From assembly GCA_021791515.1 (NCBI GenBank), contig JAJYWK010000046.1, forward strand, positions 1 through 38,611: a DNA stretch of 38,611 nt, given 5' to 3'. Positions 4,399 to 38,611 of the stretch are shown piece after piece. The translations under genes and the position numbers were made by a program. The notes beneath the pieces are model-generated. The model saw only the letters and a list, made by a program, of their open reading frames with translations. It was not told where the DNA came from and ran no database searches. The stretch's first letter is position 1; every line of letters starts with the position of its first letter. The stretch is from a bacterium. Lineage in GTDB: Bacteria > Patescibacteriota > Doudnabacteria > UBA920.

Positions 4399-5340
4399 AT
4401 GAAGCAAAAATGTACCACGGTTGGTTTGGTCCAAAATAAAGTCGGGCCGGAAATGTCCAAAAATTTCGCCCGAACCTGCAAAATGGTGGAAACGGCGGCA
4501 AAAAAAGGCGCGCAAATTATTTGCCTGCAGGAACTTTATAACACTACCTACTTCCCGCAAAAACAACATGAAAACAAAGATAAGTTCGCCGAATTTATTC
4601 CCGGCGCGTCTACTTCCATGTTTGCAGAAGTGGCAAAAATTTACGGCGTCGTAATTATTGTGCCGGTGTATGAAAAGGCAAAAAACAAGGCCGGCAAATG
4701 GGAGTATCACAATTCCGCGGCAGTTATTGACCACAACGGAAAACTGCTGCCAACTTACCGAAAAATCCACATCCCCCAGGACCCCGGCTTTTATGAAAAA
4801 GATTATTTTAAACAAAGCGACAGCGGCTATAGAGTTTACAAAACAAAGTTTGGAACAATCGCGGTTTTAATCTGCTATGACCAGTGGTACCCCGAAACCG
4901 CGCGCGCGGTAAGGCTCATGGGCGCGGAAATAATTTTTTACCCAACCGCGCTTGGCAATATTATTGGTTACAAAGCCGAAGGCGACTGGCACGAAGCCTG
5001 GCAAACCATAATGCGCGGACATGCCATTGCCAATAGCGTGTTTGTGGCCGCCGTTAACCGAGTCGGCACTGAAGGCAAAATGAAATTTTTTGGACAATCA
5101 TTTATTTGCGATCCGTTCGGCAAAGTTCTAAAACGCGCCGGCTCCGGCCAGGATGAAATTTTAATTCAAAAAATTGACCTGGAAAAAAATAAATTCTTTG
5201 CCGAAGGCTGGGGCTTTTTAAGAAACCGCCGGCCGGATACCTACAAAAGCTTAACAGCCAACAAATTGGTATCTAAATCAAAAAAACTTAAAAACGTCGC
5301 CCACTACAAAGACGAAAAAAAAGCTTTGGGTCAAACTTAA
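4399..5340 (+). CDS. aguB: N-carbamoylputrescine amidase
   Basis: A 313-residue nitrilase-superfamily hydrolase that releases CO2 and ammonia from N-carbamoylputrescine to give putrescine. The Glu-Lys-Cys triad is visible: E45 in LQELYNTTYFP, K122 in YRKIHIP and C159 in VLICYDQWYPE. The motifs and the length match the AguB branch rather than general nitrilases. The next gene, 32 bases on, encodes the enzyme making its substrate, so the pair forms a two-gene putrescine operon in the order aguB-aguA. The C-terminal Lys-rich tail is a little longer than usual. The start ATG directly precedes the first beta strand. Confidence 0.92.
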   Translation: MKQKCTTVGLVQNKVGPEMSKNFARTCKMVETAAKKGAQIICLQELYNTTYFPQKQHENKDKFAEFIPGASTSMFAEVAKIYGVVIIVPVYEKAKNKAGKWEYHNSAAVIDHNGKLLPTYRKIHIPQDPGFYEKDYFKQSDSGYRVYKTKFGTIAVLICYDQWYPETARAVRLMGAEIIFYPTALGNIIGYKAEGDWHEAWQTIMRGHAIANSVFVAAVNRVGTEGKMKFFGQSFICDPFGKVLKRAGSGQDEILIQKIDLEKNKFFAEGWGFLRNRRPDTYKSLTANKLVSKSKKLKNVAHYKDEKKALGQT

Positions 5341-5372
5341 TCTTGGTCAATTTTACTTAATTTCATTTGATT

Positions 5373-6410
5373 ATGGTCAATTACAGAATGCCAGCGGAAT
5401 GGGAACCGCACTCTGCCATCTGGCTCTCCTGGCCGCACGACGAAATTTCTTTTCCCGGCCGGGTAAAAAAAGTCCAGGAAGACCTGGCAAAAATTATTTC
5501 TGCCATCCACCAATCTGAGCAGGTGGAGCTGTTTGTTTTGGATGCTGAAATGCAAAGAATAGTTTCCAATAAGCTTGCGGAGATTAATGTTGATTTAAGC
5601 AAAGTGACTTTTCGAATAGCCAATTATATGGACGGCTGGATGCGGGACTGCGGACCGATTTTCGTAAAAAATCAAAGCGGCGGAATGTCGCTGATTAAAT
5701 GGATATTTAACCAGTGGGGCGGCAAATTTCCCGACCTACTGCCCGATGACGCACTGCCTTACAAAATGAAGCAGTGGCTGGATTTGGAAATGCAGCAGCC
5801 CGAACTTGTGCTGGAAGGCGGAGCCATTGATGTAAATGGCCAGGGCCTATGCCTGACCACGGAACAATGTGTGCTTAATGAAAATAGAAACTTAGGCAAG
5901 ACCAAGCAGGACGTGGAAAAATTTCTTGCCGATTATTTAGGCATTCAAAAAACCATTTGGCTGTGGAAAGGCTTGGTCAACGATCACACCGACGGACACA
6001 TAGACGAAATTGCCCGTTTTGTCGGACCCAACAAAATTGTCTGCGGTTATGAAGAAGATGAAAAAGATGAAAACTACGCGATATTAAAAAATAATTACGA
6101 AACTCTAACAGCCGCGACTGATTTAGAAGGCAAACCTCTGGAAATTATTAAACTGCCAATGCCGCATGTAAATTTTGCCGATGTTGCCCCTGGCACGGAA
6201 AAAGGCGCCAAAGCTCCGGTATCTTATACCAACTTTTATATTGGCAATAAAGTGGTATTGGCCTCTATATTTAACGACCCAAATGATCAAAAGGCGCTAG
6301 AGATACTCCAAAACTGCTTTCCAGACAGAAAAGTTGTACCAATTGACTGCTTGGACATTATGTACGGCGGTGGCGCCATCCACTGTATGACCCAGCAACA
6401 ACCTTTGTAA
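5373..6410 (+). CDS. aguA: Agmatine deiminase
   Basis: A 345-residue guanidino-group-modifying enzyme turning agmatine into N-carbamoylputrescine and ammonia. Family features are MPAEWEPHSAIWLSWPH at the N-terminus, MRDCGPIFV, the NDHTDGHIDE block, and GGGAIHC near the C-terminus with the nucleophilic Cys (about residue 338). ATG 5373 is chosen: the alternative TTG two codons upstream adds nothing conserved. With aguB it forms the agmatine-to-putrescine pathway. No arginine decarboxylase is seen in the window, so agmatine must come from elsewhere. Confidence 0.93.
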   Translation: MVNYRMPAEWEPHSAIWLSWPHDEISFPGRVKKVQEDLAKIISAIHQSEQVELFVLDAEMQRIVSNKLAEINVDLSKVTFRIANYMDGWMRDCGPIFVKNQSGGMSLIKWIFNQWGGKFPDLLPDDALPYKMKQWLDLEMQQPELVLEGGAIDVNGQGLCLTTEQCVLNENRNLGKTKQDVEKFLADYLGIQKTIWLWKGLVNDHTDGHIDEIARFVGPNKIVCGYEEDEKDENYAILKNNYETLTAATDLEGKPLEIIKLPMPHVNFADVAPGTEKGAKAPVSYTNFYIGNKVVLASIFNDPNDQKALEILQNCFPDRKVVPIDCLDIMYGGGAIHCMTQQQPL

Positions 6411-6586: not shown

Positions 6587-6865
6587 ATGATAACCCAAGT
6601 AATATTTAAAATTGACAAGGCCTTAAAAGCAAAAGCCCAAAAAAAAGCCAAGCTGGATGGCTTAAGTTTTTCCGATATTTTGCAAATGTCCACCCGGGCT
6701 TACGTGGAAGGCAAGCTACAGCCGCAAATGGTGCAAAAGGAAGAAAAATTTAATGCTAAAACCAGGCGCATTTTAGACCGCAGGCTGGGAGATATAAAAG
6801 AGGGCAAAAACTTGGTTGGGCCATTTAAGAACGTGGAAGAAATGAAAAAGTATCTTATGGAATAA
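6587..6865 (+). CDS. RelB/DinJ-type antitoxin
   Basis: A 92-residue basic protein. The N-terminal 45 residues look like a ribbon-helix-helix: a strand (TQVIFKIDKALKAKAQKKA) followed by the LDGLSFSDILQMSTRAYV helix pair typical of RelB/DinJ. The rest (KTRRILDRRLGDIKEGKN) is the toxin-wrapping tail. Its stop overlaps the next start by one base (TAATG), giving translational coupling. The promoter just upstream carries a palindrome, consistent with autorepression. The type II antitoxin call rests on fold-like pattern and context. Confidence 0.8.
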   Translation: MITQVIFKIDKALKAKAQKKAKLDGLSFSDILQMSTRAYVEGKLQPQMVQKEEKFNAKTRRILDRRLGDIKEGKNLVGPFKNVEEMKKYLME

Positions 6866-7122
6866 TGAACCCTGCTTTACATAAAAGCTTTAAAAAAGAT
6901 TTTAGAAAGCTTCCCGAAAAAATCCAGGAACAGTTTTTTGAAAGGGCGGCTTTATTTTTTGAAAATCGATTTAACCCGTTATTAAACAACCATTCGGTTG
7001 ATGCGGCATATCCCGGTTGCAGAAGTATAAATATTACCGGAAATTACCGAGCTATATTCAGGGAAGAAAATGGGGACGCTGAATTTTTACATATTGGCAC
7101 CCATTCGCAGTTGTATGGATAA
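6865..7122 (+). CDS. RelE/YafQ-type toxin
   Basis: An 85-residue RelE-superfamily toxin, expected to cut mRNA on the ribosome. Marks are the N-terminal HKSFKKDFRKLPEKIQEQFFER helix pair, NPLLNNHSV, the central GCRSINITGNYRAIFRE strand hairpin, and the C-terminal FLHIGTHSQLYG, where the His matches the YafQ/YoeB-like catalytic end. It starts on the last base of the antitoxin stop codon. A terminator follows at once, so the pair forms a compact two-gene unit. Activity is untested from sequence. Confidence 0.85.
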   Translation: MNPALHKSFKKDFRKLPEKIQEQFFERAALFFENRFNPLLNNHSVDAAYPGCRSINITGNYRAIFREENGDAEFLHIGTHSQLYG

Positions 7123-7135
7123 TTTCTAAAATCGA

Positions 7136-7175
7136 GGGCAGTGGTTGGAATGCATCCGACACACTGCCCCTTTTT
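7136..7175 (+). terminator. Terminator of the toxin-antitoxin operon
   Basis: GGGCAGTG (7136-7143) pairs with CACTGCCC (7162-7169) and is followed by CTTTTT. It lies 14 bases after the toxin stop. Confidence 0.75.
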
Positions 7176-7180
7176 GCGTA

Positions 7181-7585
7181 CTATCTGCAAACGTGAAGAG
7201 TGCGAAGAGTCCTAGCCATCTCTTCGGTTTGCGCGGTAATTCTTGCGCCACACCTTCCACATTGATATTCAATCGGTTTGGACGGTTTGGATACAGGCGG
7301 CAATTCGCGTTGGGGGCTGGGTGGTAGCTGGCGTTGGAAGAGAATAACCCCGGAGGAATGATCCGAAATGACGCGAAATCGACAACCTGTGATTGCCTGT
7401 ATCAACTTGACGACAAACAGGAACGATACCGGATTAAATCCGGATGCCTTATTATCGCCGCATCCAAGATCAATCGCGTCGTCGCCATCTGTCATATGGC
7501 TAGTGGAAAGTTTGATGGTTCCCCGCGCCCTGTCCAAACTTATGGTTTGCACATCTTTCAAATGATCAATGGTGAATTCCTTCAT
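7181..7585 (-). CDS. Hypothetical small protein with Cys/His zinc-finger tail
   Basis: Not recognised. From ATG 7585 it is 134 residues: a soluble N-terminal part with DVQTISLDRARGTIKLS, a middle hydrophobic stretch (FNPVSFLFVVKLIQAITG), a Pro/Ser-rich linker, and a tail CGRCG...LHVC that could bind one zinc (C-x2-C...H-x-C). ATG 7585 is chosen because AAAGGAGG sits 6 bases before it, one of the strongest Shine-Dalgarno sequences in the window. Base composition is more GC-balanced than its neighbours and it runs against them, which suggests recent arrival. A plus-strand frame through the same bases has no such start signal. Confidence 0.6.
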   Translation of the reverse strand: MKEFTIDHLKDVQTISLDRARGTIKLSTSHMTDGDDAIDLGCGDNKASGFNPVSFLFVVKLIQAITGCRFRVISDHSSGVILFQRQLPPSPQRELPPVSKPSKPIEYQCGRCGARITAQTEEMARTLRTLHVCR

Positions 7586-7712
7586 CGTTAACCTCCTTTT
7601 GGTCAATAAAATAGATTATCAAATTTAGAAATTTTGTCTAAAATAAAGGCTTTCTTAATATAAAAGTAAAACAACTCTTTACTTTTTATGTTATTTATGG
7701 CATTATTACTAT

Positions 7713-8555
7713 ATGCTTTTAGCACAATCTCAAACTATTGAAGACCACATTCTTACCCATCTAAAAAATGGTCCTAAAATTATTGTGGAGTTGATTAATG
7801 CCATAAAAAAACAACGCCCCGGGACAACTAAACAGGGAGTTTACAACGCTTTGCGGATTTTAAAAAAAGAAGAAATAGTTGTAACTCACAAAAAACAAGC
7901 TTCTTTAAATCTGGCATGGGTGAATAAAATAAGCGCTTTCACCTCCCAAACCCAAAATTTTTACCTAAAGGGCCGCTTGGACAGAGTCAGTCTTAATGTA
8001 TTAGATCAAGGGGGAAAGATCCAATATTTTTTCAAAAATCCCACACTTGCCGACGCTTTTTGGTGTCATGCGATTTATATATTGCTTGAATCTGTCCCAA
8101 AAGGCCAAGCTGTGTACTTATACAACCCTCATTGCTGGGTATATATTACCCGTCCGGAAAGCGAACGGGCTTTAAGAGACTACATTACTTCCAAGGATAT
8201 TAAATATTTAGTTGCCGTTCATGACAAACTTCCCCTGGATAAATATATTAGTAATGAATTTGACGGCGAAGCCAGCCAGTATTACATGAGCGGGACGCTA
8301 CCTTTTAAACCAGATAATTATTATTTCAATGTTATAGGCGATTATTTAATTGAAGTTTGGGAAGATGTTGGGCTTACTTCAAAAATTGAAGATTTATATA
8401 AACGCGCGTTTATTATTACCGAAAAAGAAATAGGCGAGTTAAGAAAAATTGTCATATCAACGGGAAAGACAAAATTAGCAATTTCTAAAAATCCAAAAAA
8501 AATCCAAAAATACAAACGAATTTTTGAAAAGCATTTCTATATAAAAAAACTTTGA
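7713..8555 (+). CDS. Winged-helix DNA-binding protein, unknown target
   Basis: A 280-residue protein. Residues 8-65 read as a winged helix: DHILTHLKNGPKIIVELINA, then KQGVYNALRILKKEEIVVTHKKQ with the expected recognition helix and wing. The remaining 200 residues (from about NFYLKGRLDRVSLNV) form an alpha/beta domain I do not recognise, rich in aromatic residues (DAFWCHAIYILLE, WVYITRPESERAL). The layout resembles a regulator with a ligand or nuclease-like C-terminal domain. The stop codon overlaps the -35 box of the next gene's promoter, so the two are adjacent but separately transcribed. It might regulate that gene; this is a guess from position. Confidence 0.7.
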   Translation: MLLAQSQTIEDHILTHLKNGPKIIVELINAIKKQRPGTTKQGVYNALRILKKEEIVVTHKKQASLNLAWVNKISAFTSQTQNFYLKGRLDRVSLNVLDQGGKIQYFFKNPTLADAFWCHAIYILLESVPKGQAVYLYNPHCWVYITRPESERALRDYITSKDIKYLVAVHDKLPLDKYISNEFDGEASQYYMSGTLPFKPDNYYFNVIGDYLIEVWEDVGLTSKIEDLYKRAFIITEKEIGELRKIVISTGKTKLAISKNPKKIQKYKRIFEKHFYIKKL

Positions 8556-8582
8556 CATATTCACCATATCTGTTAATATTAT
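8552..8582 (+). promoter_or_regulatory. Strong promoter of the deoxyhypusine-synthase-like gene
   Basis: Consensus TTGACA (8552-8557) overlaps the stop codon of the upstream gene. TAATAT (8574-8579, 16-bp spacing) or TATTAT (8577-8582, 19-bp spacing) is the -10 box. It would start a leader of about 90 nt. Confidence 0.65.
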
Positions 8583-8588
8583 CTCGTA

Positions 8589-8682
8589 ATTAATCCTTTT
8601 CGCTTGAACTTTAAACAAAGTCCCCCGCAAAAAACGGGGTCCGAAGGTAATAAGAAATTCGCGAAAAGCAAAAGGATCTCAA
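8589..8682 (+). promoter_or_regulatory. Structured leader that can mask the ribosome binding site
   Basis: ATCCTTTT (8593-8600) is an exact complement of AAAAGGAT (8670-8677), which holds the Shine-Dalgarno six bases before ATG 8683. The overlapping TTTTCGC (8597-8603) is an exact complement of GCGAAAA (8661-8667). The two pairings share bases and exclude each other. Between them are the hairpin CCCCG/CGGGG (8623-8639, A-rich loop) and a small ACTTT/AAAGT stem. The layout resembles a translational riboswitch or thermosensor. I match it to no known class. Confidence 0.55.
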
Positions 8683-9783
8683 ATGGACAAAAAGAAAATC
8701 AGCAAACTCTCCAAGGGTTTGCAAAAGCTAATTTTAGAAGAACCCAATGCCAAAACTACGGGCACGGTTAGCGGCCTTGTTAAAAGCGCCAAAACTCCTG
8801 TTTCGGCTTACGCTGAACGCACTCTAAACCATTTAAACGCGGGAGCGGCTTTACAGTCTGCCTTGTGGCTTAAAGATCATTTAAAAAAAGGCGGTAAAAT
8901 TGTAGTTACCATTGCCGGAGCGCTTTCGTCTTTCCAGGTCGGCGTTATGCTGGCTGAACTTATCCGCAAAAACAAAGTCCATTTAGTCTCCGCCACCGGC
9001 GCCAACCACGAGGAAAGCTATTACCGCTATGTGGCCCATTCCCATTACGCCTATATCCCCCGCTACACCGAATTAACGCCAGAGCAGGAAGCCGAACTAC
9101 GCGACGCGGGCCTAAGAAGGATTACTGACACTTTTTTGCCGGAAGATGAAAGTGTGCGCATTATGGAACCGCATTTATTAAAAATGTGGCGAGATGCGGA
9201 AAAAACAGGAGAAAAATATTTTCCCCACGAATACTTCCGGAGATTGTTTAAAGAAAAACTAATTAAGCCCGACCCTAAGGCTAATCCGTCTGATTGCTGG
9301 GCTTACGCGGCTTACGAAAAAGATATTCCCATTATCATTCCGGGGTTTGAAGACTCCACTATGGGAAATATTTTTGCAAGCTATACCTACCAGGGCGCTT
9401 TAAAAAATAAGGGCGATACGGTAATTGACAGCCGGGTAATGAAAACAGGATTGGACTATTTTCATTTAATGTACGACTGGTATATTAAAGAAAGTAAAAA
9501 TTCCCCAATTGCCTTTTTGCAATTAGGAGGCGGTATTGCGGCGGACTTCCCTATTTGCGTAGTTCCTTCCATTAAACATGATTTAAAACATCATAACGTT
9601 CGGGATTGGGCCGGATTTATAGAAATCGGCTCCTCCCCTATGTCTTACGGCTCCTATTCGGGCGCCGGCGGCAAGGAAAAAATAACCTGGGACAAGCTTT
9701 CCACCAAGAGCTACTATCAAATTATCCAGTCCGATGTTACCGTAGTTTTCCCCTGGATAGCGGCAATACTACTGGGTCTGTAA
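8683..9783 (+). CDS. Deoxyhypusine-synthase-like protein (probable polyamine aminobutyl-transferase)
   Basis: A 366-residue NAD-dependent enzyme of the deoxyhypusine synthase family. Family marks are VTIAGALSSFQVG (about residues 75-87), ATGANHEES, PIIIPGFEDSTMGN, LQLGGGIAADF and GSYSGAGGKEKITWDKLS. In the last block the Lys of TWDKL (about 338) aligns with the catalytic Lys of eukaryotic DHS (SWGKI), the residue that carries the butylamine group. Bacteria lack eIF5A, and related bacterial enzymes make homospermidine or spermidine, so a polyamine product is likely. Putrescine genes lie 3 kb upstream. It has its own promoter and a structured leader. Confidence 0.85.
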   Translation: MDKKKISKLSKGLQKLILEEPNAKTTGTVSGLVKSAKTPVSAYAERTLNHLNAGAALQSALWLKDHLKKGGKIVVTIAGALSSFQVGVMLAELIRKNKVHLVSATGANHEESYYRYVAHSHYAYIPRYTELTPEQEAELRDAGLRRITDTFLPEDESVRIMEPHLLKMWRDAEKTGEKYFPHEYFRRLFKEKLIKPDPKANPSDCWAYAAYEKDIPIIIPGFEDSTMGNIFASYTYQGALKNKGDTVIDSRVMKTGLDYFHLMYDWYIKESKNSPIAFLQLGGGIAADFPICVVPSIKHDLKHHNVRDWAGFIEIGSSPMSYGSYSGAGGKEKITWDKLSTKSYYQIIQSDVTVVFPWIAAILLGL

Positions 9784-9798
9784 AACTAAACATAAGTC

Positions 9799-10086
9799 AT
9801 GAAGTCTTATTTCGTTTATATTCTCACGAGCAAGAGAAACGGGACTTTATATATTGGAATAGCGAATGATTTAATAAAAAGAGTTTGGCAACACAAAAAT
9901 AACCTTATTGCTGGTTTTACAAAAGAACACAAAGCTCACCTTTTGGTCTATTTTGAAGAAACAACTGATGTACTTAGTGCAATTGCAAGAGAAAAACAAT
10001 TAAAAAACTGGCATCGGCAATGGAAAATAAACCTAATCAATCAGCATAATCCGGAATGGAAAGATTTATACCCAGGATTACTCTAA
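9799..10086 (+). CDS. GIY-YIG nuclease-family protein
   Basis: A 95-residue single-domain GIY-YIG protein of the UvrC N-terminal/YhbQ type. The two motif strands are YFVYILTS and GTLYIGIAND, followed by LIKRVWQHKN with the conserved Arg, and later the catalytic Glu in AIAREKQLKNW. Such stand-alone domains are common and often multi-copy in CPR genomes. Some cut branched or single-stranded DNA; the physiological role is unclear. It starts 15 bases after the deoxyhypusine-synthase-like gene and may be read through from it. Confidence 0.85.
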   Translation: MKSYFVYILTSKRNGTLYIGIANDLIKRVWQHKNNLIAGFTKEHKAHLLVYFEETTDVLSAIAREKQLKNWHRQWKINLINQHNPEWKDLYPGLL

Positions 10087-37332: not shown

Positions 37333-38126
37333 CACTTATTCTTCTGTCGCCAGAAGCGCAGACTATATCTTCATCCTATCTTATACCTTAGCTCGTCCGC
37401 CAATGGCGGACGGACATAGTATTTTATTAATGATAGGCGTCGGCGTATTATTCCAATATAATAATTGGAATCTCCCCTTTCGGGTCAGTCGTTACGGGGT
37501 CAAACCTAAAACTTTAAATAATTCAGTTGCGGTCTTCTTTTTCCGGGTTACGTAGTTATTATTTTGAATTATTACTATACAGCTTATAATTTCTTTCAGT
37601 TCCGATTGCGTAAATTGCGCAATAGTTTTACTTTCCAGAATATCGGCTGCTTTATAAAGAGCAGCCGCCTGTTGCTTCTTAAAACGTATGTATGGAAGCA
37701 ACTGTTTAAGAATATTTTTGATTTGAGCAACTCCGTTAATACGGAGCTCGCTCATCCCGTCGTTGCGGCGAGACAAGTACCCAATACCTAAAATTTTCTT
37801 AATCCAGAAAAGTCCGGTTTCATGGCGGCTATCCTGATAAAAACAGATAGTGCACATAAACCGAAACTTTATTTTTCCATCTTTCCGTTTTTTGATTTGA
37901 AGCATTAAGCTGCCGTCTCCATCGAGAAAGCCAGCAATATAAGCTAAATCAGTTTTAGATCGACTTCCCACGGTATTGTCTTAATATTCTTGGTCCTCAA
38001 GTAATTGTACCATAATTGGGGAACCGTTTCCAATTATGGCTATCAACGGATACAAAAAATATTAAGATTTCACCGTTATTAGCCGAGTTTTCAATTCGCC
38101 TTACGGCGAAAAGTAGCAATCACTTT
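37333..38126 (-). other. Group I intron 2 in 23S rRNA (sarcin-ricin loop site)
   Basis: A 794-nt intron between CTCTAGT and ACGAGAGGACC, that is after U2656 in E. coli numbering. Core elements on the minus strand: P (AACGGTGAAATCTT, about 38066-38085), Q (AAGACAATACCGTGGGAAG, about 37964-37985), R (CGTAACGACTGACC, about 37485-37500) and S (GAAGATATAGTCTGCGC, about 37356-37372). Exon UAGU can pair with intron GCUA, giving the U-G pair at the 5' site, and the intron ends in G. It carries a LAGLIDADG gene between Q and R. Confidence 0.85.
37492..37971 (-). CDS. LAGLIDADG homing endonuclease inside group I intron 2
   Basis: A 159-residue homing endonuclease with a single LAGLIDADG helix, YIAGFLDGDGSLM (about residues 10-22), followed by the strand-rich DNA-binding region (KDGKIKFRFMCTICFYQ) and basic helices. 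One motif implies it acts as a dimer. Such enzymes cut intron-less 23S copies at the insertion site and spread the intron. The likely start is GTG 37971, which lies in the intron's Q element, and the TAA stop lies at the R element, so gene and catalytic core overlap at both ends. The frame is intact, suggesting recent activity or selection. Confidence 0.9.
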   Translation of the reverse strand: MGSRSKTDLAYIAGFLDGDGSLMLQIKKRKDGKIKFRFMCTICFYQDSRHETGLFWIKKILGIGYLSRRNDGMSELRINGVAQIKNILKQLLPYIRFKKQQAAALYKAADILESKTIAQFTQSELKEIISCIVIIQNNNYVTRKKKTATELFKVLGLTP

Positions 38127-38178
38127 ACTAGAGATGTGACCACTCAAATTTCGAACACCCACAGCAGATAAGGACCAA

Positions 38179-38484
38179 CAAACTTTGTTATTTCGTTGTT
38201 CGCGGAAGCACGCGGAATTTAACGCGGACTAACGCGGAAACGAAGCATGGGCATTTCTGCCATGCTCTACATATCACTATGCAGTTCGGACTATATCTTC
38301 AACTATATTCTAGTGGTTCATTACTAGATTCCCGCTTTCGCGGGAATGATAATATAATGTCTGGCGTGTAGTCTCTACGGGTTTTCATCTAACTGATGAA
38401 TCTTCCCTCGGTATTGTCTCACGTTTTCTACCATGAGAGTTTCACCGATTTAGCCAAATTTATAGACAGCATGGTTTTCCTTTT
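38179..38484 (-). other. Group I intron 1 in 23S rRNA (site 2500 region)
   Basis: A 306-nt intron without a gene, between ACAGT and TTGGTCC, near E. coli position 2500. Exon GACAGU pairs with intron GCUGUC (38465-38470), placing the U-G wobble at the 5' splice site; the last intron base is G (38179). Core elements: P (AATCGGTGAAACT), Q (GACAATACCGAGGGAAG), R (AGACTACACG) and S (GAAGATATAGTCCGAAC). P7 pairs GACTA with TAGTC. Two repeats sit in its peripheral loops: CATTCCCGC/GCGGGAATC (about 38328-38350) and CGCGGACTAACGCGG (38223-38237). Confidence 0.88.
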
Positions 38485-38521
38485 ACTGTCTCACGACGTT
38501 TTGAACCCAGCTCGCGTACCA

Positions 38522-38558
<37 letters not shown>

Positions 38559-38562
38559 TCAC

Positions 38563-38601
<39 letters not shown>

Positions 38602-38611
38602 TCTCGTCGAT

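Follow-up and report, generated by a model that had tools for sequence, protein, structure and literature searches.

Genes of the SpeY-like locus

The window, which is the whole stretch of 38,611 nucleotides analyzed here, contains on its forward strand a gene for a SpeY-like protein, with putrescine-synthesis genes (carbamoylputrescine amidase-like and agmatine deiminase-like) located upstream of it (Table 1). The encoded protein scores 106 bits against PF01916 (DS domain; cut-off 27), and its matches in the PDB are deoxyhypusine synthase structures, in agreement with an earlier note on this DNA, which had called the gene deoxyhypusine-synthase-like. The protein falls under all NCBIfam equivalog cut-offs for homospermidine, bis-guanidino-azanonane and deoxyhypusine synthase. 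Because its best equivalog scores (72, 68 and 67 bits versus cut-offs of 500, 450 and 304) lie so far under these thresholds, the exact product is left without assignment. SpeY, a bacterial homolog of the deoxyhypusine synthase fold, makes homospermidine (PMC10407285), and another bacterial homolog of this fold couples two agmatines (PMC10981699). The enzyme encoded in the window is probably homospermidine-forming. The 1.17-Mb CPR genome of which the window is contig 16 carries two genes with a PLP-decarboxylase domain, which, together with the agmatine deiminase and carbamoylputrescine amidase genes, make a route from arginine through agmatine and putrescine to homospermidine plausible.

Table 1. 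Features of the SpeY-like locus, in positions of the window.
Feature	Position	Strand	Details
N-carbamoylputrescine amidase-like gene	4399–5340	+	TIGR03381 276 bits, under its cut-off; PF00795
Agmatine deiminase-like gene	5367–6410	+	PF04371 388 bits; TIGR03380 297 bits, under its cut-off
Predicted promoter	8552–8580	+	TTGACA 8552–8557, spacer 16–17 nt, extended -10 TGTTAATATT
5´ leader, about 97 nt (inferred)	8586–8682	+	from promoter position and ortholog comparison
Anti-SD arm of state A, AUCCUUUU	8593–8600	+	pairs with 8670–8677 in the minimum-energy fold
H1 5´ strand	8596–8611	+	CUUUUCGC (pairs with 8661–8668), UUGAA (conserved internal-loop side), CUU (pairs with 8652–8654)
Apical subdomain inside H1, ACAAAGUCCCCCG...CGGGGUCCGAAGGU	8615–8648	+	hairpin 8623–8627/8635–8639; common to L036 only
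H1 3´ strand	8652–8668	+	AAG, AAAUUC (conserved internal-loop side), GCGAAAAG
SD region AAAAGGAU	8670–8677	+	core AAGGA 8672–8676
SpeY/deoxyhypusine-synthase-like gene	8683–9783	+	366 aa; PF01916 106 bits

In orthologous loci L030–L033 and L036, the agmatine deiminase gene lies immediately upstream of the SpeY-like gene. The interval between the two genes in the window (6587–8555) holds a small two-gene cassette, in which an unassigned 92-aa ORF (perhaps an antitoxin) is paired with a ParE-like toxin, as well as a 280-aa protein that matches no Pfam family. An ORF with a GIY-YIG domain (9799–10086) immediately follows the SpeY-like gene. The SpeY-like protein (L029–L107) is 71–87% identical over many CPR phyla and a few bins labeled as proteobacteria, which suggests wide horizontal transfer or misbinning. 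No SpeY relatives were found in viral contigs.

Predicted promoter and extent of the leader

The predicted promoter matches the consensus at 10 of 12 positions, and sites of such a score are no commoner than chance. The earlier note had a strong promoter set the start about 90 nt before the ATG. Support for the promoter comes from comparison: in most family orthologs it and the downstream initial transcribed sequence CGTAATTAA are found at the same place. The element occurs at a single place in the window when up to three mismatches are allowed. From its position we infer a transcription start at about 8586.

The terminator scan returned sites on the - strand and no terminator-like site on the + strand of the leader, so control at translation is likely, and transcription attenuation was rejected on this ground. 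An upstream ORF starting at a conserved UUG was also rejected because its peptide is not conserved: L031 and L032 have a stop once four codons have been read, and in L030 the frame is that of the gene itself.

Two mutually exclusive pairings in the window

Two helices share one segment of the leader. In helix A, AUCCUUUU (8593–8600) forms eight Watson-Crick pairs with the SD region AAAAGGAU (8670–8677). In helix B, which is the base of a hairpin termed H1, CUUUUCGC (8596–8603) forms eight pairs with GCGAAAAG (8661–8668). Helices A and B exclude each other because nucleotides 8596–8600 are common to both. Pairing of 8593–8603 with either the SD region or the segment preceding it had been proposed before, and both alternatives are confirmed here, the second being one pair longer than was claimed.

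The SD-pairing fold is the predicted minimum (-23.2 kcal/mol) and leaves the SD almost wholly paired, and the H1 fold (-18.4 kcal/mol) lies about 5 kcal/mol above it. When the H1 core is enforced, the predicted probability that the window SD is unpaired rises from about 0.01 in the free ensemble to 0.36. As a control, all sequence upstream of the SD was shuffled with the SD retained (2000 trials). An SD helix of 8 bp or longer appears in 1% of these shuffles. Two helices in competition occur in 0.25% when each must have 7 bp or more, and in none of the 2000 when each must have 8 bp or more. As a whole, the leader folds just moderately better than its shuffles (z -2.2; 3 of 200 are equally good). 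Elsewhere in the window, several leaders fold at least as well and one SD is just as hidden; beside these leaders, folding energy alone is unremarkable.

Hairpin H1 is conserved in five leaders

At its base H1 has a CGC/GCG stem; above this come the invariant internal loop and then a short upper stem with compensatory changes. In the window, L030, L031, L032 and L036, the promoter and initial transcribed sequence are followed by the invariant 5´ core CGCUUGAACU (8601–8610 in the window), a variable apex, and the 3´ core AG(A/G)AAUUCGCG (8653–8663), with 20 of the 21 core positions identical. The proteins encoded by these five genes share 79–86% identity, and their four-fold sites are saturated (36–48% identity). 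Descent without selection therefore fails to explain a core that has stayed invariant.

When the five leaders are aligned on H1, 98% of the cells pair, and three pairs are altered on both sides (CG/UG/UA in the base; AU/CG/UA and UA/GU in the upper stem), while 6 of the 7 pairs of the lower helix never vary. The covariation score is reached by 4 of 500 shuffles, and slid controls are far lower. RNAalifold finds both stems, base and upper, by itself, and the unpaired UUGAA and (A/G)AAUUC between them form an invariant internal loop, which we assume is possibly closed by GAA/UUC pairs.

In each of the five leaders, which are 59–144 nt in length, H1 starts about 5–15 nt downstream of the inferred 5´ end. 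Apex length and the distance to the AUG vary widely, which suits a structured RNA better than a DNA operator; an operator is also disfavored by the spacing of the two conserved halves, which ranges from about 9 to more than 40 nt. The apical sequence ACAAAGUC...GGUCNGAAGGU is present in 2 of 380 phylum genomes (the window and L036) and absent from L030, L031 and L032. The protein tree places L036 apart from the other four H1 genes with weak support, which suggests an early origin of the longer apical form and its later loss in L030–L032.

H1 is confined to one bacterial family

A search for relatives and one scan of a genome collection gave more than 70 close orthologs across CPR phyla. Within the family, H1 is present in five of eight orthologs including the window (four of seven without it) and absent from L029, L033 and L038. 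L029 is the closest to the window by protein, and L033 shows a CCGC/GCGG base pairing in its minimum-energy fold despite having no H1. The H1 model found nothing beyond chance in 74 further ortholog loci, and in 49 genomes of the order the model (R1) found only these five leaders. Weak R1 matches elsewhere in the order (L116–L122) were rejected, as the core is broken, only part of the model is matched or the match lies inside other sequence, and none is the leader of a SpeY-like gene. A match in the viral collection (L123), antisense within a phage gene, was rejected as being at about chance expectation. Three of the 22 family genomes contain the strict pattern CGCTTGAACT-N5-35-AATTCGCG, in every case upstream of a SpeY-like gene; the pattern misses the window because the spacing there exceeds the allowed range. 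The leader element is confined to one bacterial family and five sequences, and most of the named relatives that have such a leader belong to Candidatus Doudnabacteria.

Two wirings for blocking of the start

Of the five leaders, only that of the window has the full anti-SD arm UCCUUUU; L032 retains a 6-bp version of it, and L030, L031 and L036 have none. Conservation of the pairing upstream of orthologs, on which the earlier note had staked its proposal, thus holds for H1 and its compensatory changes in five of the eight family members and fails for the SD-sequestering arm. In L030, L031, L032 and L036, the 3´ strand of H1 (AGGAAUUC) is complementary to start-proximal sequence more than shuffles are (p = 0.001, 0.0005, 0.005 and 0.002, respectively), and these four are among the strongest for this complementarity when compared with the start regions of 66 other orthologs. 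The corresponding pairing in the window is no better than chance (p = 0.24), being weakened by an A for G in its H1 3´ strand (AAGAAAUUC); there the 5´ strand of H1, not the 3´ strand, blocks the start. In all five leaders, H1 and the blocking of the start use the same strand and so exclude each other. The pairing that would turn translation off is not homologous between the window and its relatives.

With H1 enforced, the predicted accessibility of the SD increases from 0.47 to 0.63 in L030 and from 0.40 to 0.95 in L031. Enforcing H1 gives no SD release in L032 and L036, in which a weak local SD hairpin persists, so release is predicted in three of the five leaders (the window, L030 and L031).

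In the L036 leader region (4874–5000), GAGGAAUUC appears twice, in the H1 3´ strand and in the SD, which gives an 11-bp pairing and a palindromic SD. The leader of a Magasanikbacteria ortholog (L040, 4900–5003) is unrelated and also highly structured, with a CCGCGC/GCGCGG stem followed by AUGAAUU/AAUUCAU just upstream of the start codon.

Comparison with known regulatory RNAs

The Rfam gathering scan of the window returned rRNA, tRNA and a group I intron, and no riboswitch or leader class. With permissive settings, the leaders of the window, L036 and L031 yielded nothing beyond chance matches under the threshold, and no SAM-family match was found in 8480–8760 up to E = 10. The statement in the earlier note that the motif fits no known riboswitch class agrees with these scans.

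Validated spermidine riboswitches are variants of SAM-I that act by premature transcription termination and turn expression off (Salvail et al. 2023, PMC10853860). The leader described here resembles them in being an RNA upstream of a polyamine biosynthetic (PF01916) gene for which control by a metabolite has been proposed. In contrast, it has neither the SAM-I aptamer architecture nor an intrinsic terminator, and H1, if it is the sensing part, would turn expression on. In the polyamine modulon of Escherichia coli (oppA, rmf and others), spermidine changes the shape of bulged hairpins located at translation starts (PMC7177335). By analogy, this modulon is the nearest functional counterpart, since both have a bulged hairpin close to the translation start and a link to polyamines, which for H1 comes from gene context. 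However, the E. coli cases are described as effects on the structure of single mRNAs, from genes that are not biosynthetic (PMC7177335), whereas the internal loop of H1 is phylogenetically conserved, precedes a gene for a polyamine enzyme and has a competing fold. With translational riboswitches and autoregulated leaders in general, the H1 leaders share two exclusive folds, one of which hides the ribosome binding site (anti-SD/anti-anti-SD), but the arm responsible for their OFF state pairs in one way in the window and in another in the relatives. An expression platform that excludes the putative aptamer fold, as expected of a riboswitch, is predicted in all five leaders, in these two wirings.

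Proposed mechanism and alternatives

The conservation of H1, its compensatory changes and the mutual exclusion of the folds are direct observations. On balance, they lead us to favor a family-specific small cis-regulatory RNA that would control translation of the SpeY-like gene, with H1 as the inferred ON state and the alternative fold as the OFF state. H1 occupies the extreme 5´ end, is transcribed ahead of the ribosome binding site and could therefore fold first. If H1 is held, the SD would be free and the ribosome would bind; if it is not, the leaders of the window, L030, L031 and L036 would refold to a more stable state in which the start is blocked. The block would come from the 5´ strand pairing with the SD in the window and from the 3´ strand pairing with the sequence just before the AUG in the four relatives. 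Whatever stabilizes or breaks H1, be it a metabolite, a protein or a physical condition such as temperature, would set the output of the enzyme. Of the translational switch first proposed for this leader, the two exclusive folds are retained, and its SD-blocking arm applies to the window and partly to L032.

Among the alternatives, the one that survives best, although we hold it to be unlikely, is that H1 is a conserved 5´-terminal hairpin that binds a protein (SpeY or other) or shields the mRNA from decay, with competition for the SD being incidental or secondary. Its position near the inferred 5´ end in all five leaders and its invariance, set beside an OFF pairing that differs between the window and the relatives, are consistent with such a role. 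However, complementarity to the start in the four relatives exceeds that of shuffles and of nearly all other orthologs, and an invariant internal loop would be needless for stability alone.

Ranked next, and also improbable, is a polyamine riboswitch in which the H1 loop, with the apical subdomain in some leaders, would bind putrescine, agmatine, spermidine or homospermidine as an aptamer and control access to the SD. The invariant internal loop between covarying stems, the nearby genes for agmatine deiminase and carbamoylputrescine amidase (the former adjoining in L030–L033 and L036) and the action of polyamines on bulged hairpins at E. coli translation starts (PMC7177335) speak for a sensor of this kind. 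Against it are the very narrow distribution, the three family orthologs without H1 and the failure to match Rfam. Moreover, a hairpin of about 40 nt would be the whole aptamer in the minimal member L030, which is small for a selective polyamine site, and the H1-bound state would be ON, which fits a precursor better than a product. A more specific proposal is less probable still: H1 with its internal loop, joined in the window and L036 by the apical subdomain, would be the aptamer of a new CPR riboswitch that turns translation on, opening the SD upon sensing a polyamine precursor such as putrescine or agmatine.

That the AU-rich leader has no function, its pairings being fortuitous and its likeness due to common descent only, is very improbable: equally strong folds and an equally buried SD elsewhere in the window and the family orthologs lacking H1 would allow it, but not a core kept invariant against saturated four-fold sites, the compensatory changes in H1 and a dual 8-bp pairing that no shuffle reproduced.

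As a candidate cis-regulatory RNA, the H1 leader is a new, narrowly distributed addition to the structured translational leaders, with polyamine as a possible trigger. Few regulatory RNAs of CPR bacteria have been characterized, and only one class of polyamine-sensing riboswitch is well supported. The H1 leader is a conserved, Rfam-negative, short RNA (40–100 nt) upstream of a gene for a polyamine enzyme, and it can be synthesized directly. It also appears to be a case in which a conserved hairpin is kept while the arm that blocks the start has been rewired between close relatives.

At the far end of the window (37492–38611, - strand), the end of a 23S rRNA gene is split by a group I intron (RF00028, 38267–38514). 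The 159-aa ORF that lies after the 23S rRNA end (37492–37971, - strand) looks like a putative homing endonuclease.
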